Shown: in pieces, positions 1-15,552 of the stretch | Numbering within the stretch: position 1 is the stretch's first letter | Layout: the number at the start of each line of letters is the position of its first letter | NCBI GenBank assembly: GCA_013298595.1 | Contig: JAAFIG010000056.1 | Location: 1-15,552 of the forward strand | Origin: Deinococcales bacterium | GTDB lineage: Bacteria; Deinococcota; Deinococci; Deinococcales; JAAFIG01 | Reading direction: 5' to 3' | Length of the DNA: 15,552 nt | Notes under the pieces: generated by a model | What the model was told of the DNA's origin: nothing | Database searches by the model: none | The model's input: only the letters and a program-made list of their open reading frames with translations | Program-made: the position numbers and the translations under genes

Positions 1-622
1 TGAGGTTGGGCATGGGATTGCTGCTCAGTTGTTGCCTTTGGCGGATAGGGTGCATAAGTTGACGATTGTGCCTCGTGGTGGAGCGGCTGGGTTTATGATG
101 CCGTTACCATCAGAAACACAGCATTACAGTAAATCTAGATTGCTTGATAGCATTGCGGTTTTTCTGGCTGGGCGAGTGGCTGAAGAGTTACAATTCTCGG
201 ATGTGACAACAGGTGCACAAAACGATTTTCAACGCGCCACCAGTATTGCTAAGCGCATGGTTGCCGAATGGGGCATGAGTGATCACCTTGGACATGTTGC
301 GTTAATCGAAGAGACCCAGAATTTTCTGGGGTATGGCTCGGAAAGCCGCTCCTACAGTAATGCCACAGCCCAAGCCATAGATGCCGAAGTCAAAAAAATT
401 ATTGAAACACAATACACTCGAGTCAGACTGATCCTTGAACAAAATCGTCATGCTATGGATCGAATTGTGGCTGCTTTGCTCGAGCGTGAAACTCTGACTG
501 GTGAAGAATTTGTGACTGTGTTTGAGGGTGGTATTCTGCCTGAGGAAACCGAAACCAGCAAACCACCCCTCGAGCCTGGATTTACGCCAAACAATTTATT
601 ACCCAAAACCGGCGGTGTGTAG
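1..622 (+). CDS. ftsH: ATP-dependent zinc metalloprotease FtsH, C-terminal part (5' end outside window)
   Basis: Open from the window edge; the first full codon is at base 2 and the stop is TAG at 620-622, giving about 206 residues of the peptidase domain. The first residues read EVGHG, and base 1 fits the last base of a His codon, so the zinc site would be HEVGH cut by the edge. The stretch TTGAQNDFQRAT carries the Asp expected as third zinc ligand (near residue 75 of the visible part). The segments VPRGGAAGFMMPLP, SIAVFLAGRVAEEL and RMVAEWGMSDHLG are typical of the M41 family. FtsH normally degrades membrane and regulatory proteins as a membrane-anchored AAA hexamer; the AAA and membrane parts would lie upstream. 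The end is a Pro/Glu-rich tail without family motifs. The Nudix gene starts inside the stop codon, suggesting cotranscription. Many genomes carry several FtsH paralogues and I cannot tell which this is. Confidence 0.93.
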   Translation, partial: EVGHGIAAQLLPLADRVHKLTIVPRGGAAGFMMPLPSETQHYSKSRLLDSIAVFLAGRVAEELQFSDVTTGAQNDFQRATSIAKRMVAEWGMSDHLGHVALIEETQNFLGYGSESRSYSNATAQAIDAEVKKIIETQYTRVRLILEQNRHAMDRIVAALLERETLTGEEFVTVFEGGILPEETETSKPPLEPGFTPNNLLPKTGGV

Positions 623-1092
623 TGCATGAAGTGGTTTTGGTGTTTTTGCGACGAAGTCAAGAAGTGTTGCTGGGTATCAAACAAAAAGGTTTTGGTCAGG
701 GGAAATTAGTTGCAGTTGGTGGGCATATCGAAGCTGGCGAAACAGCAGTGCAGGCAGCCACTCGAGAATTTTTAGAAGAAACTAGTGTGCAGATTAAACC
801 CACAGATTTAATTGAAATCGCTCGAGTAGAATTTGTTTTTATTGCCCAACCAAACTGGCATATGCGAGCCGTGGTGTTTGAAGCTTGGCAATGGCAGGGA
901 ATACCAATAATCAGCCCTGAAATCGCTCCTGAATGGATTGAGGTAGCCGCTTTGCCACTCGAGCGAATGTGGGATGACGCGCAGTACTGGGTGGCACAAG
1001 TACTCGCTGGACAGCGTTTTGATGCGTACCTCGAGTATGGCACCGATAATGCAGTGGTGCAAAAAGCTCAGCTAACCCCTTGGCGCAAATAA
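622..1092 (+). CDS. Nudix hydrolase resembling MTH1 (oxidised purine dNTP diphosphatase)
   Basis: A 156-residue single-domain Nudix protein. The Nudix box spans residues 34-56 (G34, E40, R48-E49, E52-E53) and fits the consensus except that Ser55 replaces the usual second Gly. The sequence around it (LLGIKQKGFGQGK before the box, MWDDAQYW and RFDAYLEYG near the end) resembles the MTH1/NUDT1 group, which hydrolyses 8-oxo-dGTP and 2-hydroxy-dATP to monophosphates. MTH1 has MWPDDSYW at the base-recognition site; here one Asp aligns with Asp119 and an Ala with Asp120, so base preference may differ. The start is GTG at 622, sharing one base with the ftsH stop, which suggests coupling; no ATG is available nearby. 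The last 25 bases overlap the convergent photolyase gene. The family is certain, the substrate is inferred. Confidence 0.9.
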   Translation: MHEVVLVFLRRSQEVLLGIKQKGFGQGKLVAVGGHIEAGETAVQAATREFLEETSVQIKPTDLIEIARVEFVFIAQPNWHMRAVVFEAWQWQGIPIISPEIAPEWIEVAALPLERMWDDAQYWVAQVLAGQRFDAYLEYGTDNAVVQKAQLTPWRK

Positions 1093-2414
1093 TTTTTGGC
1101 AGTCTCGAGGAAACGATCTCTGCCAAAAGCCAATGGCAAGATCGGTGCTGGATAATTTTTTGGTGGGCGTAAACTTGTCCAAGGCTGATGAGCTTCTTTA
1201 TTGGCTAAACCCTCGAGTTCAGGAATAAAGCGTTTAATGTACTTGGCACTCGAGTCGAATTTTTCACCTTGGGTTACGGGGTTAAACACCCGAAAGTACG
1301 GTGCAGCATCCACGCCACAGCCTGCACTCCATTGCCAACCACCGTTGTTACTGGCAAGATCGCCATCGAGTAGCAAGGTATTAAAGTGTTGTTCGCCTAA
1401 CTGCCAATTTATGAGTAAATGCTTACACAAAAAACTTGCCACAATCATCCGAACTCGGTTGTGCATCCACCCTGTTTGCTCGAGTTGCCGCATTCCTGCA
1501 TCCACAATTGGATACCCTGTTTGCCCATGTTGCCAAGCCTCGAGAGCCTGTGTATCTTTGCGCCACGGAAAATCAATCCAATCTTTACGAAAGGCTTCGT
1601 GTCCCAGACGAGGTTCATCGACTAAAATATGTCGGTAAAAATCTCGCCAACACAATTCTCGCACCCAACCTGTCATGCCAGCTTGACTGGCTCGAGATGC
1701 CGCGACACGTGGTGAAATCGTACCAAGATGCAAATCCAAAGACAACCGACTTGTTCCCTCGAGATTTGGGTAATCGCGTTCAGTTTCATACTTTAAGCCA
1801 GTGCGTCGAATAAAGACTTCAAGCCGATTCAGCGCCGCTATTTCGCCTGCTGCTGGCAAAGTAAAATTGGTTACTGGTTTAGGAATCTCGAGACTGGCAA
1901 TACCGTGTGGCTCGAGCCGATTTGGTGCCGCATAGAGGTTTGGCATCGGAATGGTATGCCAAGTTTTCCAAAAAGGTGTAAAGACTTTATACCCAGTCCC
2001 AGCCCCGTTTTTCACCAAACCCGGTTCGAGAATGCAATCGCCTGCAAATAATTTTAATTCGATACCAGCGGCGGCTAAAACACTTTTTACTCGAGCATCC
2101 CGAGCCATCCCAATCGGTTCGTAACTCCGAACAGCATACACGGCTTTGGCATCGGATTCTCGAGCCAAGCGTAACAACTCAGCTTCGGGAGAACCCGCAC
2201 CGACAACCAAACTCGAGCCAATTGCTTTGTACGACTCGACAAGAGCAAGCAAGCAAGCATACAGCCATTGCACGCGGTTATTACCCGTGTAAGGCGCAAC
2301 CAACAAACTCGGATCAAGAATAAAACACGGCAAGACCGCACCTCGAGCCGCCGCCTCTGCCAAAGCAGGATGATCCAAAGTACGTAAATCCGCCCGATGC
2401 CAAACAACAATCAT
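1068..2414 (-). CDS. phrB: Deoxyribodipyrimidine photo-lyase, class I (FAD, CPD repair)
   Basis: A 448-residue protein, close to the 470 or so of E. coli PhrB. The N-terminal antenna-chromophore domain starts MIVVWHRADLRTLDHPAL. The C-terminal FAD domain has TSRLSLDLHLG (221-231), CWRDFYRH (255-262), GWMHNRVRM (315-323), the DGDLASNNGGWQW stretch (350-362) and FNPVTQGEKFD (377-387). By spacing against remembered E. coli PhrB, the electron-transfer triad W306/W359/W382 corresponds to W284, W337 and W360, and the substrate contacts W277 and W384 to W256 and W362, so a working light-driven cyclobutane dimer lyase is expected rather than a sensory cryptochrome. The ATG at 2414 fits the usual start just before the first beta strand. 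CTCGAG sits three bases upstream of it. The stop lies inside the convergent Nudix gene. The antenna cofactor cannot be told. Confidence 0.95.
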   Translation of the reverse strand: MIVVWHRADLRTLDHPALAEAAARGAVLPCFILDPSLLVAPYTGNNRVQWLYACLLALVESYKAIGSSLVVGAGSPEAELLRLARESDAKAVYAVRSYEPIGMARDARVKSVLAAAGIELKLFAGDCILEPGLVKNGAGTGYKVFTPFWKTWHTIPMPNLYAAPNRLEPHGIASLEIPKPVTNFTLPAAGEIAALNRLEVFIRRTGLKYETERDYPNLEGTSRLSLDLHLGTISPRVAASRASQAGMTGWVRELCWRDFYRHILVDEPRLGHEAFRKDWIDFPWRKDTQALEAWQHGQTGYPIVDAGMRQLEQTGWMHNRVRMIVASFLCKHLLINWQLGEQHFNTLLLDGDLASNNGGWQWSAGCGVDAAPYFRVFNPVTQGEKFDSSAKYIKRFIPELEGLANKEAHQPWTSLRPPKNYPAPILPLAFGRDRFLETAKNYLRQGVS

Positions 2415-2440
2415 AGCCTCGAGCCTACGATGAAGACAAA

Positions 2441-2472
2441 ATTGTAACTGTACGATACCTCGAGTTTGTCAA
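2441..2472 (-). promoter_or_regulatory. Possible weak sigma70-type promoter for the photolyase gene
   Basis: Read on the minus strand, a perfect TTGACA (2472-2467) is followed after 20 bases by TACAAT (2446-2441), about 27 bases before the photolyase ATG. Both hexamers are good but the 20-base spacer is longer than the usual 16-18, so this is tentative. A CTCGAG (2459-2464) lies inside the spacer. The photolyase gene sits 167 bp downstream of regulator gene 2582-3226 on the same strand, so read-through is also possible. Confidence 0.25.
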
Positions 2473-2581
2473 AAATATCAGATTGCTTGTATCAATTTCA
2501 TCACTTGAAAATAGGGCGATGACAAGCATCACCGTTACGAAAATCAGGTTTTGTAGGAATTTTTCTGTCTTATGCAGGAGG

Positions 2582-3226
2582 TCAAGGCGACTCGAGCACA
2601 GGACTCATGGCAACGCGAACCAAAAATGCTTGCTCATCAGCTACATTCTTTGCCGCATACCGCGCAACCAAAGCAGTTAAATCGTTCAACAAAGCATCAG
2701 CATCGGCTGCATGCAAATGCCATTGTGAAAAATGCGAAAATACCGCAGGTGCTGTTGGTACAGGCACATCCGATGGCACAAAAACAGGTGCTTGAGCCAC
2801 CAACTTGCCACTCGCTGCCCGAAAATACGTCGTCCCCCAACCTCGATTATCAGGTGCATACTTTCTCCAATTCTGTGCAACAGCAGCAACAAAACGCTGC
2901 TCGAAATTCAGATTATGCTCGAGTAACACCTCCTCGAAACTCTGATCCAAAAAACGAATAAAAAAAGTATCACTGACCGCCTGATAATACTGAATCCCAC
3001 GACCAACTCGCGCCTCGAGCCGAGTTTTTTCAAGCAAACCCAACTCGAGCATACGTTGCACTTTACGAAAAATACGTTGCAAAGATTCACCTAAACGCTC
3101 AGCTGCTTGCTTCATCGAAGATTCAGAACCCATAAAACACTCGAGATACCGCTGATTGTTGGCATCGGTAAGGAATTGAATGGCATCTGACCGCGTTATC
3201 ATCCTACTTTTTGTAAAGTCTTTCAT
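2582..3226 (-). CDS. Winged-helix transcriptional regulator (ArsR-like), copy 1
   Basis: About 214 residues from the ATG at 3226. The N-terminal 75 residues form a winged helix: a helical lead RYLECFMGSESSMKQAAERL, a recognition helix region SLQRIFRKVQRMLELGLL, then a wing containing GRGIQYYQAVSDTFFI. The C-terminal half contains HLHAADADALLNDLTALVARY, probably a ligand or dimer domain. It is homologous to the protein at 4199-4858 along its length. Family knowledge suggests a dimeric DNA-binding regulator; the ligand is unknown, and no cysteine or histidine metal site of the classical ArsR type is evident. The start is uncertain: ATG at 3238 and ATG at 3202 are in frame and the frame stays open to a TTG at 3247; alignment with the second copy favours 3226 or 3238. 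It is divergent from the CPBP gene with only about 30 bp between starts, so it probably controls that gene and itself. Confidence 0.82.
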   Translation of the reverse strand: MKDFTKSRMITRSDAIQFLTDANNQRYLECFMGSESSMKQAAERLGESLQRIFRKVQRMLELGLLEKTRLEARVGRGIQYYQAVSDTFFIRFLDQSFEEVLLEHNLNFEQRFVAAVAQNWRKYAPDNRGWGTTYFRAASGKLVAQAPVFVPSDVPVPTAPAVFSHFSQWHLHAADADALLNDLTALVARYAAKNVADEQAFLVRVAMSPVLESP

Positions 3227-3257
3227 TGGAAGTAGCATACCGCCCAAAATACGGTCA

Positions 3258-4121
3258 ATGTTGATTCAGTTTGCTCGGCAACAAGCTCTGAGCTTGTATT
3301 TTGCTATCACTTTTTTGCTCTCTTGGACAATTTGGTTCTCTGGGGCTGCCTTGGGTTACGCAGCATCGCTTGAGCATTTTGCCACATTTTTATTCTTAGG
3401 TTCTTTTGCTCCAGCCTTGGCTGCTTTGTTGGTCTCGGCATGGCGAGGTGGTGCACAAGAAGCACAGACATTGCTCAAGCGAATCGTGCAAGTTCGAGTG
3501 CCTTTTATGGTGTATTTAGCAACATGGTTTATTTTTCCAAGTGTAATCAGTTTAGGTTTGGTTGTGCTTGGGTTTCCTTTCAAAACAGACGCAGCTCTCA
3601 ATATTGGCACACTAATTATTGCCATGCCTATCAATGGTTTTCTAACCGCTTTTTTGTCACCAGGACCACTTGGCGAAGAACCCGGTTGGCGCGGATTTGC
3701 CACGCCGCAAATGCAACATTTACCCGAATGGCAAGCCAATATAGTGCTTGGTTTGATCTGGGCTTTTTGGCACCTACCCATAGCTATACTTTTCCCTGAG
3801 TGGCGCGAGCTAATGCCAAATGTGGATGTGGGATTACCACTCTGGTTGGTCTTGTATCCGATTTCTATCATTGCCCTGACAATCATGTTGGCAAAATTAT
3901 GGAAATGGTCTGGGCAAAGTATTTTTATTTGTATTTTATTTCATGGCGTGATCAACACAACTTTTCATAATTTTGACAAAGTGAGTACGCCATACTCGGC
4001 TACGGTTTCTTTTATTTTACTTGATGTATTACTTTGGTTGATTGTACTAATTTTTTTGATTTTGGATAAATTTGTTTTTGAGGCTAAACGCTTGCCAAAT
4101 AATAACCAAAAAAACGCGTAA
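3258..4121 (+). CDS. CPBP-family intramembrane glutamic endopeptidase (CAAX/Abi type)
   Basis: A 287-residue polytopic membrane protein with about seven or eight hydrophobic segments. The three CPBP motifs are present: EEPGWRG (E140, E141, R145), WHLP with H172 after WAF, and HGVIN (H229, N233). These carry the catalytic Glu/His set of Rce1-type proteases. Bacterial members process membrane or peptide substrates, and some act in bacteriocin self-immunity; the substrate here is unknown. ATG at 3258 puts the start just before the first membrane helix. An in-frame ATG at 3180 would add 26 residues overlapping the 5' end of the divergent regulator and is less likely; neither start has a clear ribosome binding site. 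It is flanked by two homologous regulators. The gene contains no CTCGAG at all, unlike every other gene in the window, which hints at recent acquisition. Confidence 0.9.
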   Translation: MLIQFARQQALSLYFAITFLLSWTIWFSGAALGYAASLEHFATFLFLGSFAPALAALLVSAWRGGAQEAQTLLKRIVQVRVPFMVYLATWFIFPSVISLGLVVLGFPFKTDAALNIGTLIIAMPINGFLTAFLSPGPLGEEPGWRGFATPQMQHLPEWQANIVLGLIWAFWHLPIAILFPEWRELMPNVDVGLPLWLVLYPISIIALTIMLAKLWKWSGQSIFICILFHGVINTTFHNFDKVSTPYSATVSFILLDVLLWLIVLIFLILDKFVFEAKRLPNNNQKNA

Positions 4122-4127
4122 CTCGAG

Positions 4128-4154
4128 TTGGGCAAGGCATGCCTTGCCCCTACG
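4128..4154. repeat. Dispersed palindrome, copy A
   Basis: A perfect 20-base palindrome, GGGCAAGGCATGCCTTGCCC (4130-4149), is flanked by TT on the left and CCTACG on the right. The same 27 bases recur exactly at 8813-8839, and a diverged relative lies at 10818-10842. It sits seven bases after the CPBP stop codon, between two convergent genes, and could form a hairpin in RNA. There is no U-tract, so it is not a typical intrinsic terminator. It looks like a REP-like dispersed intergenic repeat. Confidence 0.75.
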
Positions 4155-4198
4155 GAAAAATGAAAACCATGCGTTGTAGCTTAGAAAACAACAATTGT

Positions 4199-4858
4199 TT
4201 AACCAGCATCTTCGACAAAACCAACGTGCATGGTAAAACGTGGCAGATCAGGTTCAAGCTGCACCGAGGTTTTGAAGCGTTCAAATAATGCCTCGAGTTC
4301 CAGACGAAATTCAGCCGCTTTTTCAATTGGCATGGTGATATCTGCCCAGTCATGCAGTGGGCGTTTTGGTAGTTGACGCAGCATTTGAGGCTCGAGTTGT
4401 GCTTGGGTAAACATTGGCTCGAGATGCAATCCATAGCCAAAATTATCGCGGAATAAGCGCAATCGCCAATCAGGGGTTAGACGTGTGCCAAATTCTGCCA
4501 CACTGCGACTAAATTGTCGGTAATGTCGTAGCATAATGCTTTCTAAAATTTCGGTATTACTAAATCCCTCGAGTAAGGTGCTCGAAAAAACAAATTCTGC
4601 GGCAACACTTTGATAATGTTTGATGGCACTTCCACCTCGAGTTTCGACCCGAGTAACCCGAATTAAACCCAGTTGGCAAAAACGATTCGCCCAGTATGCC
4701 ATGACATTGAGTTTTGTTTTTGTCTGCTGTGCCGCTGCTTTGACTGTTGTTTCTGAACCAATAAATTGGGCTAAATACGCTGAGACATTTTCTTTAATCA
4801 GTAAAGCAGCTATTTTTGCATCGGTAATTTCGAGTCTGGTCAGGGCAGGTGCTGTCAT
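4199..4858 (-). CDS. Winged-helix transcriptional regulator (ArsR-like), copy 2
   Basis: A 219-residue homologue of the 2582-3226 regulator. Matching blocks are YLAQFIGSETTVKAAAQQ against YLECFMGSESSMKQAAER, LGLIRVTRVETRGGSAIKHYQSVAAEFVF against the wing of copy 1, and a C-terminal acidic helix EKAAEFRLELEALFERF. The winged helix occupies about residues 25-95; the remainder is probably a sensing or dimer domain with no recognised ligand site. ATG at 4858 aligns with the start of the homology, though no good ribosome binding site precedes it. It is divergent from the lipoprotein gene with 26 bp between start codons, so the two promoters must overlap each other or the coding sequence; local autoregulation is likely. 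It converges on the CPBP gene from the other side. The two copies are similar but clearly diverged, so they are not a recent duplication. Confidence 0.85.
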   Translation of the reverse strand: MTAPALTRLEITDAKIAALLIKENVSAYLAQFIGSETTVKAAAQQTKTKLNVMAYWANRFCQLGLIRVTRVETRGGSAIKHYQSVAAEFVFSSTLLEGFSNTEILESIMLRHYRQFSRSVAEFGTRLTPDWRLRLFRDNFGYGLHLEPMFTQAQLEPQMLRQLPKRPLHDWADITMPIEKAAEFRLELEALFERFKTSVQLEPDLPRFTMHVGFVEDAG

Positions 4859-4884
4859 TTGACCAGCTTAACAATTAAATTGAA

Positions 4885-5646
4885 ATGATGAATTTACCTC
4901 GAGCTTTAACACTGATACCGTTCGCCTTTGGTGCTGTTTCTTGTACATGGTTAGCCGAACCAAAATTGCTCAACGAACGCCAAACCTTGGATTTCACAGG
5001 CATCAGCAAACTCGAGGTGGTTGGAATTGCAGGAAACTTTAGTGTTAAACGCGGGCAAACAGGATTGTTAACTGGTCAGGGTGTTGGCAGAGTCAGCCTC
5101 AATTGGCAACGGGAAGGAACAACCTTACGGGTCAGCAGTAGTGGCGATACCAATTGCTACCCATGTACCGTGGACATCGAAGTCCAAGTGGTACAACCGC
5201 TCGAGTTAGCCTTAAATGCCAGCAATGGTAACGTAACAGTAACCGACGCAGCCACCAACGCTGAGTTAAAATCGGGTAACGGTAGCATTCGTATTTCAGG
5301 AGCCACCAATGTGACTGCCAAAACAGGCAACGGCGAAATCTATGCCGCTAAGGTAAACGGAAAAATCAATCTCTCGAGTAATAACGGTAAGATTACCCTC
5401 GAGAACGCAGAATTACCTGTTGCTTCGCAAAATAGTATCAACACAAAACTTGGAGATATCCGTATCAATGGACTCAAAACAGCCAATGGTTTTGTCATAA
5501 CGGGCAACAGCAGCAGACCTGTGTTTGCCTTATCCGACTTTGAATTAAAAACCACAACTAACACTTTTATAGCCACTCGAGCAGGAGCAAACCCAACCAT
5601 ACTCAATCTCGAGACAAACAACGGCACAATCCATATCAACCCATAA
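4885..5646 (+). CDS. Putative lipoprotein with DUF4097/GIN-like beta-helix domain
   Basis: 253 residues. The N-terminus, MMNLPRALTLIPFAFGAVSC, is a short lipoprotein-type signal with a possible lipobox GAVSC and acceptor C20; the positive region is weak, with a single Arg. After it comes LDFTGISKLEVVGIAGNFSVKRG and then repeated short beta units rich in Asn and Gly (NASNGNVTVTD, KSGNGSIRISG, KTGNGEIYAA, SSNNGKITLEN, TNNGTIHINP). That spacing of about 20 residues is characteristic of the right-handed beta-helix of DUF2807/DUF4097 proteins, generally surface or periplasmic proteins of unknown role. ATG codons at 4885 and 4888 are both possible starts. It is divergent from regulator copy 2 and upstream of the metallopeptidase on the same strand, 108 bp apart with a separate promoter candidate. 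Function unknown; envelope location is inferred. Confidence 0.75.
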   Translation: MMNLPRALTLIPFAFGAVSCTWLAEPKLLNERQTLDFTGISKLEVVGIAGNFSVKRGQTGLLTGQGVGRVSLNWQREGTTLRVSSSGDTNCYPCTVDIEVQVVQPLELALNASNGNVTVTDAATNAELKSGNGSIRISGATNVTAKTGNGEIYAAKVNGKINLSSNNGKITLENAELPVASQNSINTKLGDIRINGLKTANGFVITGNSSRPVFALSDFELKTTTNTFIATRAGANPTILNLETNNGTIHINP

Positions 5647-5698
5647 GCCACTCGAGTTTGACTGTGTTGCAAATCAACCTCGAGATAGACTTTTGTGG

Positions 5699-5727
5699 TT
5701 GAGAACCGATCTTAAAAACACTATAAC
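5699..5727 (+). promoter_or_regulatory. Sigma70-type promoter candidate for the metallopeptidase gene
   Basis: TTGAGA (5699-5704) and TATAAC (5722-5727) are separated by exactly 17 bases and each differs from the consensus at one position. The predicted transcript would start near 5734, about 20 bases before the ATG at 5755. It lies in the 108-bp gap after the lipoprotein gene. Confidence 0.45.
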
Positions 5728-5754
5728 CTCACCCGAAACAGCTATAAACTAAAC

Positions 5755-6477
5755 ATGTTCAAGCGCAAACGAAACATCATTGCATTGGCAGTTGGCATCC
5801 TTGTTCTAGCCCTAGCAACACTGGCATTTGCTTTTCCCGGACAAGCAGCTTGTGCGCTTGTAGACATTTCTGGATTGGACACACTGCCAGACGGAACTCG
5901 AGTGCAACAAGCTATTTCGGCAACCGAAAAACAACGTATTCTCGAGTTAATCCAACAAGGCAAAACCCGTATTGCTAAGATGTTCGGAGAACCTCGAGCC
6001 ACACCAAAACTTGTTTTTCTGAAAGATACCAACGCATGGTTTCCGTTTCGTTTTAATGAATACGGAACTACTTTTTATCTAGCAAACCGAGCCTGTATTA
6101 TCATTGGATATAAAGGCACAAACCTCGATGTTGTCGCCCATGAATTGATGCACAGCGAAATTTTTGCTCGAGCAGGTGCATGGCAAATGGTTGCTGAAAT
6201 TCCCAAGTGGTTTGACGAAGGGCTTGCTATGCAAGTAGATTATCGCCCTCGATTTATTCGCACCCAACCACTTGAGCCAGCAGAAATTGCTTTAGTTCGC
6301 AGTTTACAATCCTCTAGCCAATTTAGTAGTGGCACCGACGAACAAACCACACAACATTACACACTGGCAAAAACACTGGTGCAACAATGGTTAGCTAAAA
6401 TAGGTGATAAAAACCTGTACTCGAGCTTAGAACGCCTCCGTCAAGGCGAAAAATTTATCAGTGTTTTTGGACAGTAA
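5755..6477 (+). CDS. Membrane-anchored or secreted zinc metallopeptidase (HExxH, peptidase MA-like)
   Basis: 240 residues. A basic start (MFKRKR) is followed by a hydrophobic segment (about 8-27), so the protein is exported and either anchored or cleaved near FPGQAA. The zinc site is HELMH (H129, E130, H133), followed 22 residues later by WFDEGLA, whose E155 is the expected third ligand, the layout of the gluzincin peptidase-MA-like group. The rest is a helical domain with no further motif; at 240 residues it is a minimal catalytic unit. The substrate is unknown. It lies downstream of the lipoprotein gene on the same strand but appears to have its own promoter, and ends two bases before the convergent membrane-protein gene. 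There is no purine-rich ribosome binding site before the ATG, as for several other genes here. Confidence 0.82.
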   Translation: MFKRKRNIIALAVGILVLALATLAFAFPGQAACALVDISGLDTLPDGTRVQQAISATEKQRILELIQQGKTRIAKMFGEPRATPKLVFLKDTNAWFPFRFNEYGTTFYLANRACIIIGYKGTNLDVVAHELMHSEIFARAGAWQMVAEIPKWFDEGLAMQVDYRPRFIRTQPLEPAEIALVRSLQSSSQFSSGTDEQTTQHYTLAKTLVQQWLAKIGDKNLYSSLERLRQGEKFISVFGQ

Positions 6478-6479
6478 AT

Positions 6480-7568
6480 TTAGGAACTTGTCTCGAGATT
6501 TTCAGGAATGGATGGTGGTACAACCAAAACACTCAAGACCAAACCTGTCAGACCAGCCATAACGGTAATACCTGTCCAGAATTCACGCTCAAGGGAAATA
6601 CCGCCTCCGAGGTGACGTACCAAGTAATGCAAGCCCCAAATAACTAGTGGTAATAATAAAGCTAAAGCACGAAACTCGAGTATGCGTTTTGGTGATGGTT
6701 TATAAAAGGCAATGAAGGCATCGGCGAATAAACCAGCGGCTGCACTGGCAGTAACGCTGTACCAACCAACAGAACCACCGATCACGGTCATGCCGATGGT
6801 ATTGAGGGCAAACATCAGGGTGAATGTACCAAATGGCGTTTGCCAACGGCGCAGCAACAGTAAAACAGGTGCGAGCAAAATAACATTGCTAAACAAAACT
6901 GCCATTGCTGAGAGTTTCGAGGCATGGTCAAACATCACACTGCCACCATTTTGTTTCAGCCAATCCATGTACCCAACACCATCGGGGACATTGGTTAAAC
7001 CCCAGGCATACAAATGAAAAAAAGTGGCAAAAGAAAAAGCAGTAAAACTCGAGAGTAAAGTTGGTAGAAACTCGAGGAATTTTGGTTGCCGACTAAGTGT
7101 TGCCCAACCTGAACGCAGTGGGCTGGTGACGAGTAAAGTACCACCTGTTAAAAGCAGTAAGTGTGTAGGAGAAAGCAGTGCGGCATTGCCAACTTCGATA
7201 CCAAAAACACTGTGCCAAATCATATCGCCGATGCCACCCAGCCCGAAAATTGCCACGCCAGCTAAACCAAGATCGTAACCAATAGGAATAGCAGCAAATC
7301 CTGTGCGACCCTTGCGTACTTCACGCACCACAAGCCACATTGTCCACAGTGCCGCAGCCGTAAAACCAGAGTACAAAATGCCATGCCAAGGAGTGAAAAA
7401 ACTTTCGATTGTGCCACGCAAATTTGCGTGAGCAAAACCATCCACGAAGACACCAGCAATGAGCCATAACCCCATAACAATGGTAATTAAATTATCTGTC
7501 CAACCAGCCCGAGGACGCTCGAGGTTTTGCGAATACGCATTGGCATTACCAGAAAAAGATGTGTTCAT
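6480..7568 (-). CDS. Multi-pass membrane protein of unknown function
   Basis: About 362 residues from the ATG at 7568; the frame extends six codons further to a TTG at 7586, which is less likely. After a polar N-terminal tail (NTSFSGNANAYSQNLERPRAGW) there are about ten hydrophobic segments. The first half has several histidines in or at the ends of helices: GFAHAN, FTPWHGILYSGF, GDMIWHSVFGIEVG, LLSPTHLLLLTGG and FFHLYAWG. Their placement suggests a metal, haem or proton-linked role, but I do not recognise a named family and this is only inference. It ends two bases from the convergent metallopeptidase gene. It lies 69 bp downstream of the LRR gene on the same strand, with a CTCGAG in the gap, so it could belong to that transcript. 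It is one of the less CTCGAG-dense genes, in keeping with its hydrophobic coding. Confidence 0.7.
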   Translation of the reverse strand: MNTSFSGNANAYSQNLERPRAGWTDNLITIVMGLWLIAGVFVDGFAHANLRGTIESFFTPWHGILYSGFTAAALWTMWLVVREVRKGRTGFAAIPIGYDLGLAGVAIFGLGGIGDMIWHSVFGIEVGNAALLSPTHLLLLTGGTLLVTSPLRSGWATLSRQPKFLEFLPTLLSSFTAFSFATFFHLYAWGLTNVPDGVGYMDWLKQNGGSVMFDHASKLSAMAVLFSNVILLAPVLLLLRRWQTPFGTFTLMFALNTIGMTVIGGSVGWYSVTASAAAGLFADAFIAFYKPSPKRILEFRALALLLPLVIWGLHYLVRHLGGGISLEREFWTGITVMAGLTGLVLSVLVVPPSIPENLETSS

Positions 7569-8694: not shown

Positions 8695-8700
8695 GGGTTC

Positions 8701-8812: not shown

Positions 8813-8839
8813 TTGGGCAAGGCATGCCTTGCCCCTACG
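8813..8839. repeat. Dispersed palindrome, copy B
   Basis: Exact 27-base duplicate of the element at 4128-4154, with the perfect 20-base palindrome at 8815-8834, in the same orientation. It lies in the 283-bp gap between the divergent 99-residue gene and the vWA gene, upstream of both, so it cannot be a shared terminator here. That argues for a mobile or duplicated intergenic element rather than a gene-specific control site. Confidence 0.75.
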
Positions 8840-8966
8840 AAGTTTTCTCAATCAGCACCACATTTTTAACAGCAACAAATCATGGTCATTTCAATTAGCA
8901 AAGTAAGCCGTAACCATGCCAACCACAACCGAATTCTCATTGCCATAAAATAAGCTAAACACCCTC

Positions 8967-8973
8967 AAGGAGA
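8967..8973 (+). promoter_or_regulatory. Ribosome binding site of the vWA gene
   Basis: AAGGAGA ends four bases before the ATG at 8978; the AAGGAG core leaves five bases. It is the best Shine-Dalgarno match in the window and confirms the start. It suggests strong translation of the vWA protein. Confidence 0.7.
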
Positions 8974-8977
8974 AAAC

Positions 8978-10813
8978 ATGATAAACACCGATTATGCCTT
9001 TGCACAAAGCATCCTACCAATAGGCTCGAGCGGCGCAACCGACGTGCTGCTGCGTTTTCGCGTTCAAAGCTCGGGCAAACCACGTCGTAAACTCAACATT
9101 GCCTTGGTCATAGACCGCAGCGGTTCGATGGCAGGCAGCCCCTTACATCATGCGATCAAAGCCGCCCAAGCTGTCATAGATGCCCTCGAGCCAACTGATA
9201 TGATTACCGTGGTTGCCTTCGACGATCATGTTTCCACCGTTATTGCCCCACAAGCCGCCACCGACCCCAAAGCCTTAAAAGAAAAAATTCGTGGTATCCG
9301 TGCAGGCGGCACTACCAATCTGTCTGGAGGCTGGCTCGAGGGTTGCAAACACGTCAAGAGCAATTTCGACCCACAAGCCATCAATCGCGTACTGATTCTC
9401 ACCGACGGGCACGCCAACGAAGGTATTACCGACAGTAAAATCCTAATGAAAACCGCTGCTCAAAAACTCGAGGAAGGTATTATTACCACCACCCTCGGCT
9501 TTGGTAACGGCTTTGAAGAAGACTTACTGGTTGGCATGGCTCGAGCCGCCAATGGTAATTTTTATTTTATTCAAAACACCGACGAAGCCGCGCAAGTGTT
9601 TAGCATCGAACTCGAGACCATGAAATCGGTGTTAGCCCAAAACTTGGTTGTGCAATTAACCTTGCAAAACGGAGCCAAACTGCTCAACACCCTCAGCCTC
9701 GCGCCACTCGAGAATAAAAACGGAGTCCTCAGCGTAGCTCTTGGTGATATTTTTGATGGCGAAGACAAATTACTGGGCTTAACCCTCGACTTACCCGAAC
9801 TCAGTAAAGCAGGCAATCTCGAGGTACTTAGTGCCAGTTATACTGCCGATACCATCGTCGATGATGCAATCCAAAACAACCAAGGCACAATCAATGTCAG
9901 CGTACAAGCAGGCAGCATCGAAGAAGCCGCAGCTGCCGCACCAACAGGTGTAAAAGTCGAACTGGCACGCTTAAAAATTGCTCATGCCAAAGACAAAGCA
10001 CTGGATTTCACCGACCAAAACAAATACAGCGAAGCCGAAAAAACCTTGCGCGACACCATGAAAAACATCCGCGACCAAGGACTCCACGAACACTTTGAAA
10101 TCGCTGAAGAACTCGAGCAACTCGAATACTTTGCCACACGCTTTAGCAGCAAAAATATTTCCTCCAACACCCGCAAAGAACTCCGCGACCAATCCTTCCA
10201 AGGACTGAGCCGCAACCGCGCCGACCTCGCAGGACGCGGTATCGAAACAACCGACGAAATCCGCAGCCTGACCACAGTCAGCGAAATCGGCAACGGCATC
10301 GAACTCGAGTGCATCCGCGAAAACGGCAAACTCAAAATCAAAGTCAACAACCCCCAATACGACACCAGCATGAACGTCCAATTCCCTCGAGCCATCCGCG
10401 CTGAAGGAGTCAAATACGTCGTCGAAAGCCTAGAACGCAGCAACGACGGCACTTTCTACCGAGCCAAAGGCACCATACAACGCCTCCTCCGCCCCGGCGA
10501 AACCGACACCTTCACCGCACCAAGCCGCTCGAGTATTGTCCGCACAGGCAAAGCCAGCAGCGCACCCGCCACTGCCGCTGATCTCGAGGTCACATCAGAT
10601 ACTACCGACGCAGTGCTAATCCAATGCGTCAAAGATGGCAGTAAACTCCGTGCTCGAGTCGTCTCGGACGGTTACGAACCCACATGGAACATGCGATTCC
10701 CACGCAGCATCCGCGAAGACGGAATGCTATACGTTGTAGACGAAGTGATAACCGCACCCGATGGAAAATCCTACATTGCCTGCGGCAAAATCAAACGCTT
10801 TGAACAAACCTAA
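8978..10813 (+). CDS. Cytoplasmic von Willebrand factor A protein with two C-terminal 63-residue repeats
   Basis: 611 residues without signal peptide or membrane segment. The vWA domain (about 38-215) has a complete metal-ion-dependent adhesion site: DRSGS (46-50), Thr in GGTTNLSGG (T112/T113) and TDG (142-144). A beta-rich region (about 220-310) and a helical segment (about 325-420), rich in Glu and Lys, follow. The C-terminus holds two equally long repeats, 441-503 and 546-608, identical at 22 of 63 positions without gaps, sharing C, KL, FPR-IR, G, YVV, DG, Y-A-G-I-R. Between them is a Ser/Thr/Ala-rich linker (504-545). vWA proteins of this type often scaffold protein complexes, for example with MoxR-type ATPases or phosphatases, but none is adjacent here. 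The repeat resembles domains I have seen in uncharacterised vWA proteins; I cannot name it. Its codon use looks more CTC/CGC-rich than the neighbours. Role unknown. Confidence 0.9.
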   Translation: MINTDYAFAQSILPIGSSGATDVLLRFRVQSSGKPRRKLNIALVIDRSGSMAGSPLHHAIKAAQAVIDALEPTDMITVVAFDDHVSTVIAPQAATDPKALKEKIRGIRAGGTTNLSGGWLEGCKHVKSNFDPQAINRVLILTDGHANEGITDSKILMKTAAQKLEEGIITTTLGFGNGFEEDLLVGMARAANGNFYFIQNTDEAAQVFSIELETMKSVLAQNLVVQLTLQNGAKLLNTLSLAPLENKNGVLSVALGDIFDGEDKLLGLTLDLPELSKAGNLEVLSASYTADTIVDDAIQNNQGTINVSVQAGSIEEAAAAAPTGVKVELARLKIAHAKDKALDFTDQNKYSEAEKTLRDTMKNIRDQGLHEHFEIAEELEQLEYFATRFSSKNISSNTRKELRDQSFQGLSRNRADLAGRGIETTDEIRSLTTVSEIGNGIELECIRENGKLKIKVNNPQYDTSMNVQFPRAIRAEGVKYVVESLERSNDGTFYRAKGTIQRLLRPGETDTFTAPSRSSIVRTGKASSAPATAADLEVTSDTTDAVLIQCVKDGSKLRARVVSDGYEPTWNMRFPRSIREDGMLYVVDEVITAPDGKSYIACGKIKRFEQT

Positions 10814-10817
10814 ACCG

Positions 10818-10842
10818 TAGTGGCGAGGCGTGCCTCGCCATA
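10818..10842. repeat. Dispersed palindrome, diverged copy C
   Basis: The arms TGGCGAGGCG and TGCCTCGCCA (10821-10840) form a near-perfect palindrome with one mismatch, preceded by CGTAG. Aligned with the reverse complement of copies A and B it differs at only a few positions. It begins a few bases after the vWA stop and could fold at the end of that transcript, but has no U-tract. Confidence 0.6.
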
Positions 10843-10897
10843 CACCACAGCATCAGGTCAAAAGCAAAGGCTTTCCAGCATACAAAGAATCGCGGTC

Positions 10898-10970
10898 AGT
10901 TAGCCCCTCTCCCGACTCGCTTGAAGCTCGTCACCCTCTCCCAAAATCGCTTCGCTGGGAGAGGGTTTCG
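10898..10970. repeat. CCCTCTCCC/GGGAGAGGG inverted repeat with partial duplicate
   Basis: The arms CCCTCTCCCA (10934-10943) and TGGGAGAGGG (10956-10965) give a perfect ten-base stem with a 12-base loop that itself contains GCTTCGC. A half copy, CCCCTCTCCCGACTCGCTT, lies just upstream (10901-10919). This form is common as dispersed repeats in several bacterial phyla. No U-tract follows, so termination is doubtful. Confidence 0.65.
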
Positions 10971-11053
10971 CCTTTGCTAAATTTCTTTGTGGCTTTTCAA
11001 GAAATTGCTTCTGTGGCAACAGTGTTCTCGCGTCTGTGACGTATTGGGGTTTT

Positions 11054-11083
11054 GTAGGGGCGAACCTCTGTGTTCGCCCTTTA
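11054..11083. repeat. GTAGGGGCGAAC hairpin repeat
   Basis: GGGCGAAC (11058-11065) and GTTCGCCC (11072-11079) form a perfect eight-base stem with a six-base loop, starting with GTAG. The GTAGGGGC start is shared with the reverse complement of palindromes A and B, so it probably belongs to the same broad family with a different stem. The loop-side text (CCTCTGTG) is close to versions found widely dispersed in cyanobacteria and Chloroflexota. Confidence 0.65.
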
Positions 11084-11150
11084 GGAGAACACAATCTGGA
11101 TTTGTGCTAAGAAATGTTGTGAACTGTTAAACACAACACAAAACAAAAAT

Positions 11151-12104
11151 CTAAAACTCGAGGGGCTTCAAATGCTTTTCTATATCAGCTCTTTTTGGCT
11201 CGAGAAAGGGTGGTAAAGCTAATCGTTGCCCAAGGGTTTCAGCGCTTTCATCGGTGGCAAACCCAGGATCATCGGTGGATATTTCAAATAAGATACCGTT
11301 GGGTTCGCGGAAATACGCAGCTTTGAAATAAAACCGGTCTATTAACCCCGAGTGACGAATCCCAAAAGCACTCAGATGCTCGAGCCAAGCAGCATGGCTG
11401 GTGGCATTCGCTACTCGAAATGCAACATGGTGCATACCACCAGCGCCCGAACGAGCAGGAGCAAGGTCTGGGCGGATCTCGAGATGCAGTTCGGTATTGC
11501 TACCGCCTTGGGTCATTTGAAAAACCGCCACACCATATTTGGAATTGTTCGGCGAAGGGTATTCTGCAATTTGCTGCATATTCAAAACTTTGCTTAGCAC
11601 TTCAGCTGTTGGGCGCAATTGTGGAATGGTCAGTGTGACTGCACCCAAACCACGAATACTATACTCAGCAGGAATATGCGCTGTCCAAGGCAGAATATTA
11701 TCTTCGCTCGAGTCAGCAATCAAACTCAAACGCTGCCCCTCGAGATCAGCAAAATCCAGAGTTAAACGATTGTGGCGCACCTCAAGACTCGAGGTGGTAA
11801 TACCAGCATTGTGTAATCGCTCCTGCCACCAAGCAATACTTTCGTTACTTGCCACCCGTAAACCCGTGCGACTAATACTATGACTGCCAAAGCGTTCAGG
11901 GGCAGCGTGCGCCCAATCAAAAAAAGTCACATCCGAACCCGGCGAGCCACGCTGATCGGCGTAAAACAAATGATACGCCCGCACATCATCTTGATTAACC
12001 GTTTTTTTGACTAAACGCATACCCAGTGTTTGTGTGTAAAAAACATGGTTCTGCTCGATTTTACCCGTGATACCCGAAATATGATGCAGACCAAGTAAAT
12101 TCAT
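11151..12104 (-). CDS. Two-domain VOC (glyoxalase) family ring-cleaving dioxygenase, MhqO-like
   Basis: 317 residues, the usual length for the MhqO/MhqA/YkcA group. Two VOC modules are visible: an N-terminal one starting LLGLHHISGITG with FYTQTLGMRLVKKTVNQDD, and a C-terminal one with GLGAVTLTIPQ, GGMHHVAFRV and NGILFEISTDDPGFATDE. The expected metal ligands are H8 (or H7), H226 and E274. Members open hydroquinone or catechol-type rings using Fe(II) and are often induced by quinone stress; the substrate here is inferred only. The C-terminal LALPPFLEPKRADIEKHLKPLEF closely follows the family pattern. ATG at 12104 is preceded after two bases by CTCGAG, and no separate ribosome binding site is seen. 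It stands alone, with repeat-bearing gaps on both sides and no MarR-type regulator adjacent. Confidence 0.88.
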   Translation of the reverse strand: MNLLGLHHISGITGKIEQNHVFYTQTLGMRLVKKTVNQDDVRAYHLFYADQRGSPGSDVTFFDWAHAAPERFGSHSISRTGLRVASNESIAWWQERLHNAGITTSSLEVRHNRLTLDFADLEGQRLSLIADSSEDNILPWTAHIPAEYSIRGLGAVTLTIPQLRPTAEVLSKVLNMQQIAEYPSPNNSKYGVAVFQMTQGGSNTELHLEIRPDLAPARSGAGGMHHVAFRVANATSHAAWLEHLSAFGIRHSGLIDRFYFKAAYFREPNGILFEISTDDPGFATDESAETLGQRLALPPFLEPKRADIEKHLKPLEF

Positions 12105-12412
12105 ACCTCGAGGTTAAACTGTTTTTGAGGGTTGTTGTGCAAGTCAGATAACCAAAACTGTCAAGACAGAACGTGAACTCCTACGGACTCCCCCAGCCGC
12201 GCTTCTTGACCACATACGCACACCTGACGGGCGTGGTCGCTTCGCTTGGCAGCCCCCTCAAAAGAGGGAGCTTAAAATCATGACCTTGTGTTGACTCGAG
12301 TGACCATGTTCGGAGGTGCGTGTTTATGGTCAAGAGAGTGGAGTAGGTGGGTATTGCGGTTTTCAAAAAATTCTTTCAAAACTGCTTTCATCCTTCATCT
12401 TTTTCCTCGACT
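12105..12412. other. Intergenic region with degenerate dispersed repeat
   Basis: 308 bases between the IDH stop and the dioxygenase start, both on the minus strand, so it must hold the dioxygenase promoter, although I see no convincing -35/-10 pair. It contains a repeat-like block (12184-12274), described separately, and two CTCGAG sites (12107 and 12295). The short frames across it are not supported as genes. Confidence 0.6.
12184..12274. repeat. Dispersed-repeat block with CCCCCAG ... CCCTC/GAGGG hairpin
   Basis: The block starts CGGACTCCCCCAGCC and ends CAGCCCCCTCAAAAGAGGG, a layout typical of dispersed repeats in many bacterial genomes. Inside it are a six-base inverted repeat GACCAC/GTGGTC (12208-12213 and 12233-12238) and a five-base stem with an AAAA loop, CCCTC/GAGGG (12255-12259 and 12264-12268). 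The TCGCTTCGCTT text resembles the loop of the repeat at 10898-10970. Confidence 0.45.
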
Positions 12413-13858
12413 CTACTGTCCTTGCCCGAGCGAAAATCCTGGCTCACCATCAAAGGTGCATAAATTCTCGGTTTTAATAAAATCGAGTCCCTCGAGGGCA
12501 ACTCTGCCTAGCAGTGTCACAATATCTTCGTGACTGATAGATAATCCTTCTGGGACTGTGAATCTACCACGCCAATGGTCAGTGCGGAAAGTCTCTGGGA
12601 AGCCTCCGGGCCAGACTTTTACGCCTCGGTTGGTAATCATGGTCAGTTTTAGGTGCTCTAAGTTGGCTCGTTGTAATTGCACGGCTAAATCTTCGGCTGT
12701 TTGCCCTCGCCAATTGACAAAGACATCCACACCAACTGTTTCTTTACGCGCAGGTAAACGACGTACCAGTTTAGCGTGTGGTTGACGCTCGAGGTCAGCA
12801 GCGGCAAAATGCGTGACAGGTAAATGCTGTGGTTCTCGTCCGAGGTTAGCAATCAAGGTATCGGCAAATTCTTGCGTTCCCACTTTTTTGATACTCGAGC
12901 CTGCTTCAAAAATATCAGCTGTGTGATGCCCTTCCTCGAGTGTGACCAGCCAAGCATTTTTGATTTTGGCAGCCACAGCGGGTTGTCCAATGTGGACTAG
13001 CATCAGCACGGCGGCGTTGAGTAATCCGCTGGGGTTAGCAATATCTTGTCCTGCAATATCTGGAGCGCTGCCGTGAACAGCTTCAAACATAGCGACTTCA
13101 TCGCCAATGTTAGCACTACCTGCCAGACCAACACTACCTGTTACCTCAGCCGCAATATCCGAGAGGATATCGCCATACAAATTTGGTGCCAGAATCACAT
13201 CGAATTTATCAGGATTTTCGGCGAGTCGTGCCGCGCCAATATCAACAATCATGTGGTCTTTGCTGATTTCTGGATACTCAGCGCCGAGTTCATCAAAAAC
13301 CTTGTGGAACAAACCATCGGTCAGTTTCATGATGTTGTCTTTGGTCACACAAGTCACGTGCTTGCGACCATGCCTGCGGGCGTACTCGAACGCATAACGC
13401 ACAATTCGTTCTGTGCCCGGTCTCGAGATCAGTTTTAAGCATTGCACCACTTCATCAGTTTGGCGATGCTCGATACCTGCGTATAAATCCTCTTCGTTTT
13501 CGCGGACAATCACCAAATCTATTTTTTTGTGTTTGGTGCTGACAAATGGGGCAAAACTTTGGCACGGGCGAACATTAGAATACAAACCAAGGGTTTTACG
13601 AATCGTCACGTTCAGGCTTTTAAAACCACCACCTTGTGGTGTGGTAATCGGGCTTTTTAAGAATACTTTGGTACGCCGCAAACTTGCCCAAGAACTGGGT
13701 TCGATCCCGCTCGAGTGACCACGTTCATATACAGCTTTACCAATCGCAATTTCCTCGAGTTCAAGTTCGGCACCTGCAGCTTCCAGAATCCGCAAAGTTG
13801 CTTGCATGATTTCTGGTCCGATACCATCGCCATGCGCCACTGTAATAGGTATTTTCAT
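12413..13858 (-). CDS. icd: Isocitrate dehydrogenase, long single-subunit type, probably NAD-dependent
   Basis: 481 residues, like the Thermus/Rickettsia-type enzymes that carry an extra C-terminal domain of about 120 residues. It converts isocitrate to 2-oxoglutarate in the TCA cycle. Seen in the sequence: VAHGDGIGPEIM (7-18); the substrate loop SPITTPQGGGFKSLNVTIRKTLGLYSNVR, positions 69-97, with S81, N83, R87 and R97; RENEEDLYAGIE (R119, Y126); K173; and metal Asp residues in NLYGDILSD (D230, D234). The cofactor loop is HGSAPDIAG with D267-I268; Asp-Ile here is the known NAD signature, while NADP enzymes have Lys-Tyr. The long tail and the TTPQGGG loop argue against isopropylmalate dehydrogenase. 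ATG at 13858 has no evident ribosome binding site. It follows the two-component genes on the same strand after 86 bp. Confidence 0.92.
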   Translation of the reverse strand: MKIPITVAHGDGIGPEIMQATLRILEAAGAELELEEIAIGKAVYERGHSSGIEPSSWASLRRTKVFLKSPITTPQGGGFKSLNVTIRKTLGLYSNVRPCQSFAPFVSTKHKKIDLVIVRENEEDLYAGIEHRQTDEVVQCLKLISRPGTERIVRYAFEYARRHGRKHVTCVTKDNIMKLTDGLFHKVFDELGAEYPEISKDHMIVDIGAARLAENPDKFDVILAPNLYGDILSDIAAEVTGSVGLAGSANIGDEVAMFEAVHGSAPDIAGQDIANPSGLLNAAVLMLVHIGQPAVAAKIKNAWLVTLEEGHHTADIFEAGSSIKKVGTQEFADTLIANLGREPQHLPVTHFAAADLERQPHAKLVRRLPARKETVGVDVFVNWRGQTAEDLAVQLQRANLEHLKLTMITNRGVKVWPGGFPETFRTDHWRGRFTVPEGLSISHEDIVTLLGRVALEGLDFIKTENLCTFDGEPGFSLGQGQ

Positions 13859-13944
13859 GGGTGTAGCCTAAACGATTCTTGGCACTTAGGATTCCGTGAT
13901 GGCTCACATTTTTTTTACACTCTGTCTAAGAAAGAAGTTTACAA

Positions 13945-14586
13945 TTAACCAATTCCCGCATTTTTTGCCACCCAAATTGCTTCGGAACGATCAGCAACTT
14001 GTAACTTGGCAATGATATTTGATACATAATTTCGCACCGTTTTTGGACTTAACTCGAGCCGCAAAGCAATCGTAGCGTTAGAGCAAAGCTGCGTGATTAA
14101 CTCGAGAATTTCACGTTCTCTTGCAGTTAATTCTGGAAACACTTGCATTGCAATTGGGCGGGTGGCTGCAAAGTACTGCAATACTCGTTCAGCCACACCT
14201 GCTCCAAAAACCGCTTCTCCTCTGGCAACACCACGAATAGCTTGAGCGATTTCTTCTTGGGTTGCGCCTTTTAACAAATACCCTTGTGCGCCTGCTCGAA
14301 TGGCAGCAAACACAGAATCATCATCTTGAAACATGGATAACATCAGAATTTGAATCCGTGGATTAACACTTTTGATTTGTCTGGTGGCTTCAATACCATT
14401 CATATTTGGCAATTGAATATCCATTAAAATCACATCGGGTTGCAATTCGGCAGCTAAACGCAGACCAGCTTCGGCACTTTCGGTATCAGCAATAATCTCG
14501 ATACCTGTTTCAGACTCGAGTAGTAAACGTAAACCGCTTCGTAAAACCAAGTGGTCGTCTACAATTAAAACGCTGATATTATGCAT
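13945..14586 (-). CDS. NarL/LuxR-family response regulator
   Basis: 213 residues. The receiver domain (1-120) has acidic D10-D11, the phosphoacceptor D56 in ILMDIQLPNMNG, S84 and K106. The C-terminal LuxR-type helix-turn-helix (about 152-205) contains LTAREREILELI, a recognition region LSPKTVRNYVSNIIAKL and a final ADRSEA. It is a standard transcription factor activated by phosphorylation from the kinase encoded just upstream; its targets are unknown. The ATG lies inside the end of the kinase gene (ATGCATAA, eight-base overlap), so the two are translationally coupled. One oddity is TQLCSNATIALRL, where the usual G-x-x-N-xx-IA segment has a Cys-Ser in place of the Gly-Leu/Tyr. The IDH gene lies 86 bp downstream on the same strand and may be cotranscribed or have its own promoter. 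Confidence 0.95.
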   Translation of the reverse strand: MHNISVLIVDDHLVLRSGLRLLLESETGIEIIADTESAEAGLRLAAELQPDVILMDIQLPNMNGIEATRQIKSVNPRIQILMLSMFQDDDSVFAAIRAGAQGYLLKGATQEEIAQAIRGVARGEAVFGAGVAERVLQYFAATRPIAMQVFPELTAREREILELITQLCSNATIALRLELSPKTVRNYVSNIIAKLQVADRSEAIWVAKNAGIG

Positions 14587-15552
14587 CGGTTTCTCCTGTT
14601 GTTTTTACGGGCAACCAAGCCAGTACTCGAGTACCCTGACCAGATTCAAGCTCGAATTTACCACCAAGCTCTGTGGCTCGTTCACGCATTGAATACAGTC
14701 CAAGACCACTTTCTGGTAAGGCTGGTAAGCCAACACCATCATCGGCAATCTCGAGTAACAATCCTGTTTGGTCTTGGTACAAATTAAATTTGACATGTTT
14801 AGCATTGGCATGCTTGGCAATGTTATTCAGCGCTTCGCTGGTAATTCGGTAGACTGCCACTTCAATAGCAGCTGGTAACGGCTCGAAGATGACAATATGA
14901 ATCTCGGGAATCACCACTAACATCTGTCCAAGTTGTTGACGCAACGCTCCTTCTAAACCCAGATTATCCAAAGCTGGAGGGCGTAAATCGTAAACCAATC
15001 GCCGAATATCGGTAATCGCAGTTTGAACACTTTGTGCCGAAGCAGCAATCATTGTTTCGGCTCGAGCAGGATTTTGTCCAATCAAATTCTTTGAAACTTG
15101 TAAGTTCATCGAAACACTGGCAAGTGTCGCACCAAGCCCATCGTGCAAATCTCGGCGAATCCGTTTACGCTCTTCTTCTCTGGCAAAAACAATGGCTTCC
15201 TTGGAGCTTTGCACTTCCTGAGTTAATAAAGCTTCTTGCACCGCCACAGCTGCTCGAGCTGCTAAATCCTCGAGCAAACGCATTTCGATAGGCGTAAAAG
15301 TTTCTGTGGTAGATCGTTGCGAAACCAGTAAAACACCTACAGGTTGTTGTTTTATTCGCATTGGAAACTCGAGAATTTGCCCAACAGCACTGCCCACTGC
15401 CACAATTTGCCCAGCCGAGGGTTGTAATGCCACATATGGTAAACGCAGCGTTGAAGCCAAGGTTTGCACAATCGTAAATGCCAATTCCTCGGGTTTATGA
15501 GCACCCTCGAGTTGCCGACCTAAATTACTAATGGCTCGGTACGGGTCGTGGC
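14579..15552 (-). CDS. GAF-containing NarL-type sensor histidine kinase (N-terminus outside window)
   Basis: The frame is open to the window edge; translation of the edge gives HDPYRAISNLGRQLEGAHKPEE before LAFTIVQTL, so the TTG at 15484 is not the true start and about 324 residues are visible. A GAF-like domain comes first (LRLPYVALQPS to EDLAARAAVAVQEALL). Then follows a HisKA_3 dimerisation helix with the phosphoacceptor in EEERKRIRRDLHDGLGATL, and DIRRLVYDLRPPALDNLGL. The HATPase domain has SEALNNIAKHANA (N-box), DDGVGL (G1) and GLGLYSMRERATELGG. This is the NarX/DegS-type kinase family; the missing N-terminus probably holds sensing or membrane segments. The signal is unknown. It overlaps the response regulator by eight bases. 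Confidence 0.95.
   Translation of the reverse strand, partial: HDPYRAISNLGRQLEGAHKPEELAFTIVQTLASTLRLPYVALQPSAGQIVAVGSAVGQILEFPMRIKQQPVGVLLVSQRSTTETFTPIEMRLLEDLAARAAVAVQEALLTQEVQSSKEAIVFAREEERKRIRRDLHDGLGATLASVSMNLQVSKNLIGQNPARAETMIAASAQSVQTAITDIRRLVYDLRPPALDNLGLEGALRQQLGQMLVVIPEIHIVIFEPLPAAIEVAVYRITSEALNNIAKHANAKHVKFNLYQDQTGLLLEIADDGVGLPALPESGLGLYSMRERATELGGKFELESGQGTRVLAWLPVKTTGETDA

Follow-up and report, generated by a model that had tools for sequence, protein, structure and literature searches.

Dense genome-wide iteration and short-range self-exclusion of the palindrome CTCGAG in an uncultured family of the order of Thermus

The highly iterated palindrome HIP1 was described in 1995, and the function of such palindromes has been open since, with the debate centred on cyanobacteria and on methyltransferases. 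Other words over-represented genome-wide include Chi sites, which are non-palindromic and strand-biased, and DNA uptake sequences, which in known cases occur about once per kb. Two restriction-modification systems also bear on the hexamer considered here: PaeR7I/XhoI acts on CTCGAG itself, and TaqI/TthHB8I recognises TCGA, the core of CTCGAG.

HIP1 is the cyanobacterial sequence GCGATCGC, beside which alternate HIPs were described by Elhai 2015 (PMC4390886). According to that article, HIP1 and the alternate HIPs accompany cognate methyltransferases, a pattern that is general in cyanobacteria with exceptions, and a ratchet of the repair-bias type is proposed for HIP1 in a model that saturates near one site per kb. 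A second article (PMC6604393) gives a density of one HIP1 per 1,131 bp in Synechocystis 6803 and cites Xu et al. 2018 for the maintenance of HIP1 by selection.

The CTCGAG hexamer in the stretch of DNA analysed here (15,552 bp, hereafter the window) resembles HIP1 in being a short palindrome that is over-represented genome-wide and shared by relatives at varying density. It occurs far above compositional expectation, both within genes and between them and in every frame, and is filed here, by analogy, as a further variant of the HIP class and not as HIP1 itself; the likeness drawn in the first-pass annotation was the right one. The traits that differentiate it from HIP1 are (i) another sequence in another phylum, CTCGAG in place of the cyanobacterial GCGATCGC, (ii) a density about six times higher (169 versus 1,131 bp per site), (iii) no cognate methyltransferase found among five Pfam families and two XhoI-linked types, and (iv) an exclusion of 15-20 bp between sites and a dipeptide effect, neither of which is mentioned in the passages on HIP1 that were consulted. 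Unlike Chi, CTCGAG is palindromic and has no orientation, and it is several times denser than uptake sequences. Among the open-licence papers searched, none describes an iteration of CTCGAG of this kind in the phylum.

The window contains exactly 104 copies of CTCGAG (Table 1), the number that had been estimated by hand, compared with a mean of 1.68 and a maximum of 9 in 200 dinucleotide shuffles. The copies are spaced 146 bp apart on average, with a shortest spacing of 16 bp and a longest gap of 982 bp. The second-ranked 6-bp palindrome has 11 copies and no single-base variant of CTCGAG exceeds 9; the last-position variants, which the first-pass annotation had called far rarer, number 9, 4 and 6. 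The excess is a trait of the genome and is not confined to the window, so that the refuting condition set in the first-pass annotation does not hold: the window's own assembly (G000; 4.58 Mb in 68 contigs, 94% complete) holds 27,159 CTCGAG, or one per 169 bp, whereas GAGCTC, the reversed control, has 15 copies. An order-2 model with the motif masked predicts 36 copies for 413 kb of G000, where 2,431 are present, a 67-fold excess. A maximal-order Markov test is blind here: the sub-words of CTCGAG are themselves dominated by CTCGAG, and 87 copies are expected in the window.

Table 1. Coordinates of features in the 15,552-bp window.
Feature	Position	Strand	Basis or remark
CTCGAG array, 104 copies	417..15511		exact count
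Two of the ten intergenic CTCGAG sites	2418..2464		gene model
Eight further intergenic CTCGAG starts	4122, 5651, 5679, 7612, 8569, 8732, 12107, 12295		gene model
Longest CTCGAG-free gap	3140..4127		flanking sites at 3140 and 4122
Rce1/CPBP-like protease gene	3180-4121	+	exactly fills the 982-bp CTCGAG-free gap
Isocitrate dehydrogenase-like gene	12413..13858	-	used for comparison with relatives and named genomes

The protease-gene gap has a GC content of 0.417 versus 0.467 for the whole window, and the CTCGAG-free gene was possibly acquired recently. It is flanked by genes for two proteins of about 220 aa (2582-3247 and 4199-4858) that lack a Pfam match and are alike by eye, including a helix-turn-helix-like N-terminus.

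By the gene model, the window sites fall in the three codon frames as 61/19/14, with ten intergenic sites at 6.2 per kb. The occurrence in different frames and noncoding gaps is as previously annotated, while the occurrence on both strands is trivial for a palindrome. Long reading frames carry 5.98 sites per kb and the remaining DNA 5.43. Since the most frequent frame is CTC GAG, encoding Leu-Glu, an artefact of codon or dipeptide composition may be considered, but its probability is negligible: synonymous codon shuffling within genes leaves 216 ± 13 sites versus 2,023 observed, with G001 and G003 matching G000 in this respect, noncoding DNA is equally dense, and Glu-Leu is at expectation. A codon-usage origin is rejected on the shuffle and the noncoding density, in keeping with the earlier statement that the excess is not a codon effect.

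Synonymous positions are nearly saturated with CTCGAG. The motif encodes 66-75% of Leu-Glu dipeptides, and of the protein contexts compatible with it in the two remaining frames, 37-63% contain it. The odds of CTCGAG at Leu-Glu are 24- to 77-fold above the codon-context expectation, for which the controls were Leu codons preceding Asp, and Glu codons following Ile, Val or Phe. The effect is strong enough to shift the proteome. Leu-Glu has an observed/expected ratio of 2.2-2.3 and Glu-Leu one of about 1.0, so the motif also drives amino-acid composition. A DNA-level signal thus alters protein composition, with Leu-Glu at more than twice its expected frequency.

The trait is shared by the family. 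The congener G001 has 26,619 copies and two other family genomes have 27,118 and 28,178 (relatives of 4.2-4.5 Mb), with at most nine GAGCTC in each of the three. The sister family includes the saturated genomes G012 (21,868 in 3.5 Mb) and G016 (14,690 in 1.9 Mb) as well as G008, which is intermediate, and G004, which has 683 copies in 2.3 Mb. The remaining families of the order have lower densities than the saturated genomes; in adequate samples of the same families, CTCGAG is the dominant TCGA context, with G004 alone showing no preference, a comparison that rests on sampled DNA of each genome. G041 and G052, like G004, are low in CTCGAG. The RpoB of G007, a member of the same order, matches Thermus RNA polymerase over its whole length, which places the window in an uncultured family in the order of Thermus. 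The best named match of the isocitrate dehydrogenase, at 70%, is an uncultured Meiothermus bin, within a mixed match list. Among 80 named loci across Bacteria, picked by this gene and hence independently of CTCGAG content, the median is 0.13 CTCGAG per kb and the highest value, 1.9, belongs to a Meiothermus bin.

Individual sites turn over. Of the aligned coding sites of G000, 56% are kept against G001 and 39% against G003. At shared Leu-Glu positions that are CTCGAG in G000, G003 uses CTCGAG in 88%, and it still does so in 75% of those that are not, so that sites have been lost and regained at constant density. This comparison of homologous positions in relatives had been proposed on first reading of the window. 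CTCGAG is maintained genome-wide, site by site, independently of frame, and with turnover between genera at the same density.

CTCGAG sites exclude one another within about 15-20 bp, and the exclusion acts on synonymous codon choice. Over 6,844 CTCGAG intervals, the per-base hazard of a following site rises from 0.0014 at a distance of 6-10 bp through 0.0022 (11-15 bp) and 0.0030 (16-20 bp) to 0.0064 (21-25 bp), after which it levels off at about 0.007. Leu-Glu at 15 bp or less from another CTCGAG is written as the motif in only 32-35% of cases, whether or not the neighbour is in frame, compared with 77.5% for isolated Leu-Glu. Leu-Glu near a non-motif Leu-Glu retains 68-70%, which rejects clustering of the dipeptide as the cause. 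Hairpin avoidance is likewise rejected, as pairs of other 6-mers, whether inverted or direct, show no shortage at close spacing. No saturation of occupancy was seen at 20-300 bp, which argues against functions that need one site per region.

The reading tentatively preferred, ahead of each of its rivals although somewhat less likely than not, is that each CTCGAG is kept individually as the binding site of a DNA-binding protein with a footprint of 15-20 bp. Sequence-specific binding was among the explanations first offered, and binding by such a putative protein fits best because of the short-range exclusion. The exclusion is the trace that would be expected of a bound protein covering about 15-20 bp, with each site valued singly. 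An abundant protein, dimeric given the palindrome, would occupy each CTCGAG and would most simply be a nucleoid-organising or chromosome-maintenance protein. Occupancy per unit length would be what matters, so that the gain of a copy would be favoured and its loss disfavoured, and a second CTCGAG inside the footprint would add little. Counting against this reading, one site per 169 bp would call for a protein of very high abundance, flank preferences that might have marked a longer consensus largely disappeared under controls, and a modifying or repair enzyme could also be the source of the exclusion. Tens of thousands of selected sites imply a small effect per site, and a directional repair bias would give the same.

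Under such a directional bias in repair or mutation, a mismatch-processing system that may take its cue from a mark on the site would correct losses of CTCGAG better than gains, and the word would accumulate unused. This is a conceivable but rather unlikely alternative. It accommodates the equal density of coding and noncoding DNA, the lack of any visible position preference along genes, and the near saturation of permitted sites. Why such a bias should cease within 15-20 bp of an existing site is not apparent. Beyond 20 bp, neighbouring sites do not lower occupancy, and the model published for HIP1 saturates near one per kb (PMC4390886) versus about 6 per kb here. Near-miss variants bear on both accounts. 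One-off transition variants are about 2- to 3-fold enriched over the order-2 model, also outside CpG; a bias acting only on new mismatches predicts such undepleted variants as well as selection does. Vsr-type rewriting of near misses is rejected, as it would deplete CTTGAG and CTCAAG, each of which is 1.9-fold enriched. The joint excess of CTTGAG and CTCGAA was also considered as a strong decay flux, a reading weakened by the Leu-before-Asp control.

No extended consensus emerged beyond the hexamer. In noncoding DNA, G at -3 seemed avoided, and flanks affected Leu-Glu occupancy, but similar effects in other CTC contexts and other dipeptides led to an extended consensus being dropped. C at +3 is the sole flank preference that stays motif-specific under the controls in coding DNA.

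A second alternative, slightly less likely than repair bias, is a methyl mark: a solitary methyltransferase would methylate CTCGAG, and the modification would be used in maintaining the chromosome, a role also proposed for HIP1. Its appeal derives from the association of HIP1 and the alternate HIPs with cognate methyltransferases, as given in Elhai 2015 (PMC4390886), and from the at least six methyltransferase genes of G000, which would be candidates for the role. A search of 14 to 18 genomes covered the families PF01555, PF00145, PF07669, PF02384 and PF02086, and none of the five yielded a methyltransferase common to all four family genomes. The best-shared enzyme is a C5 methyltransferase in G000, G001 (74%) and G012 (59%), with no comparable relative in G002 or G003. 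G016, the densest genome (58% complete), has no match to the five families. Moreover, the variants show no excess of CpG transitions and hence no sign of 5-methylcytosine deamination.

The XhoI-family endonuclease (PF04555) occurs in four of 111 genomes, three of one genus (G018, G042 and G048) and G009, where the gene (L349, G009:C1:1095688-1096226) is broken by in-frame stops; it is absent from the window's genome and the other saturated genomes, which separates CTCGAG there from the PaeR7I/XhoI system. The broken gene adjoins an open PaeR7I-like methyltransferase frame. Within the XhoI genus, genomes with the endonuclease have 0.70-0.97 CTCGAG per kb versus 1.65-1.97 without it, a halving that restriction avoidance predicts. 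Apart from the broken gene, XhoI-type endonucleases are found solely in genomes with a lowered CTCGAG density.

The endonucleases of the order are adjoined by methyltransferases of a beta and a gamma class. The gamma type is 53-54% identical to the enzyme beside an XhoI-family endonuclease on a Pseudomonas aeruginosa plasmid. It is also found solitary in several genomes of the order, a point in favour of a methyl mark, with the G102 copy 48% identical to the plasmid enzyme and the order's copies 50-77% identical to one another. Without endonuclease it is scattered in two genera (g13 and g28), and g13 carriers and non-carriers have similar CTCGAG densities, which speaks against such a mark. Relatives of the beta type at 58-69% in most Thermus-type genomes could again support it; there the following gene (L362, L365) differs from the XhoI type, so that the enzyme may have another specificity. 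Four of these relatives (L355, L360, L362 and L365; 61-69%) share chromosomal surroundings that recur between genomes. A gene of about 230-240 aa comes next in L362 and L365 (the L365 one without a Pfam match) and could encode the endonuclease of this methyltransferase. Both types are absent from G000, G001, G003, G008, G012 and G016, and G002 has only a 30% relative, so that four of the five saturated genomes other than G000 lack them as G000 does. Genomes of the order that have XhoI-linked methyltransferases are no richer in CTCGAG. The solitary XhoI-like methyltransferase suggested at the outset was accordingly not borne out for the window's genome, as neither the five families nor the two XhoI-linked types gave one shared by the saturated genomes. 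These results therefore give no proof that CTCGAG maintenance requires a methyltransferase, though an unrecognised one may exist.

In Thermus, the motif has a different standing. G007 has a TaqI-type system (RE_TaqI, E = 9e-76) adjoining a TaqI-like methyltransferase, and of the 40 TCGA in 40 kb of DNA from elsewhere in this genome, 39 lie inside CTCGAG. On 100 kb of the T. thermophilus HB8 plasmid pTT27, 104 of 110 TCGA are CTCGAG, compared with 6 of 29 in phage P23-45 and 0 of 29 in phage YS40 (loci L486, L488 (HB8 pTT27), L182 and L183). The survival of TCGA almost solely in CTCGAG despite a TCGA restriction system again favours a methyl mark. CTCGAG is about as frequent as GAGCTC in Thermus, which means that it is spared there and not enriched, in contrast to its roughly 67-fold enrichment in the window's genome. 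The sparing could reflect a separate CTCGAG enzyme or a function.

The two phages, which lack the host TCGA/CTCGAG pattern, also bear on whether CTCGAG marks own DNA for natural transformation or defence. AT-rich genes for surface polysaccharides are among the longest stretches examined that lack the motif, consistent with recent arrivals, and the absence of CTCGAG from such stretches agrees with a mark of self. This account is nevertheless improbable: an uptake signal needs far fewer sites, a higher local density does not reduce occupancy beyond 20 bp, and foreign GC-rich DNA contains any palindromic hexamer too often for good discrimination. CTCGAG-dense viral contigs were also considered in 80 loci, which are mostly GC-rich; the one AT-richer viral candidate (L445) is a repeat-rich collagen-like gene and uninformative.

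With binding by a protein as the preferred reading, a bolder and doubtful proposal is that the approximately 27,000 palindromes form a chromatin-like, methylation-free grid, dense enough to alter the proteome, in which each is kept for binding by an undiscovered, very abundant and sequence-specific DNA-organising protein, the grid being graded across the order of Thermus. CTCGAG represents an independent highly iterated palindrome outside cyanobacteria, much denser and without a recognisable cognate methyltransferase, and its spacing rule can be measured from codon choice alone. Its weaker forms occur in lineages with culturable relatives, which makes binding, methylation and function testable in the laboratory.

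Two further features were noted in these genomes. Two intergenic segments of the window (10813-11114 and 12164-12340) have no Rfam match; dispersed relatives of them are numerous in G001, and G002 and G003 contain shorter matches, certain 38-bp stretches being 95% identical across genera. The copies are partly in inverted orientation, as in a family of small mobile or structured repeats. GGCC is nearly absent, at 1-2% of expectation in G000 (30 observed versus 2,321 expected), G001 and G003, where CCGG stands at 14-28% (stretches of 813, 378 and 790 kb, respectively), pointing to long-lived pressure from GGCC-cutting restriction in the family.
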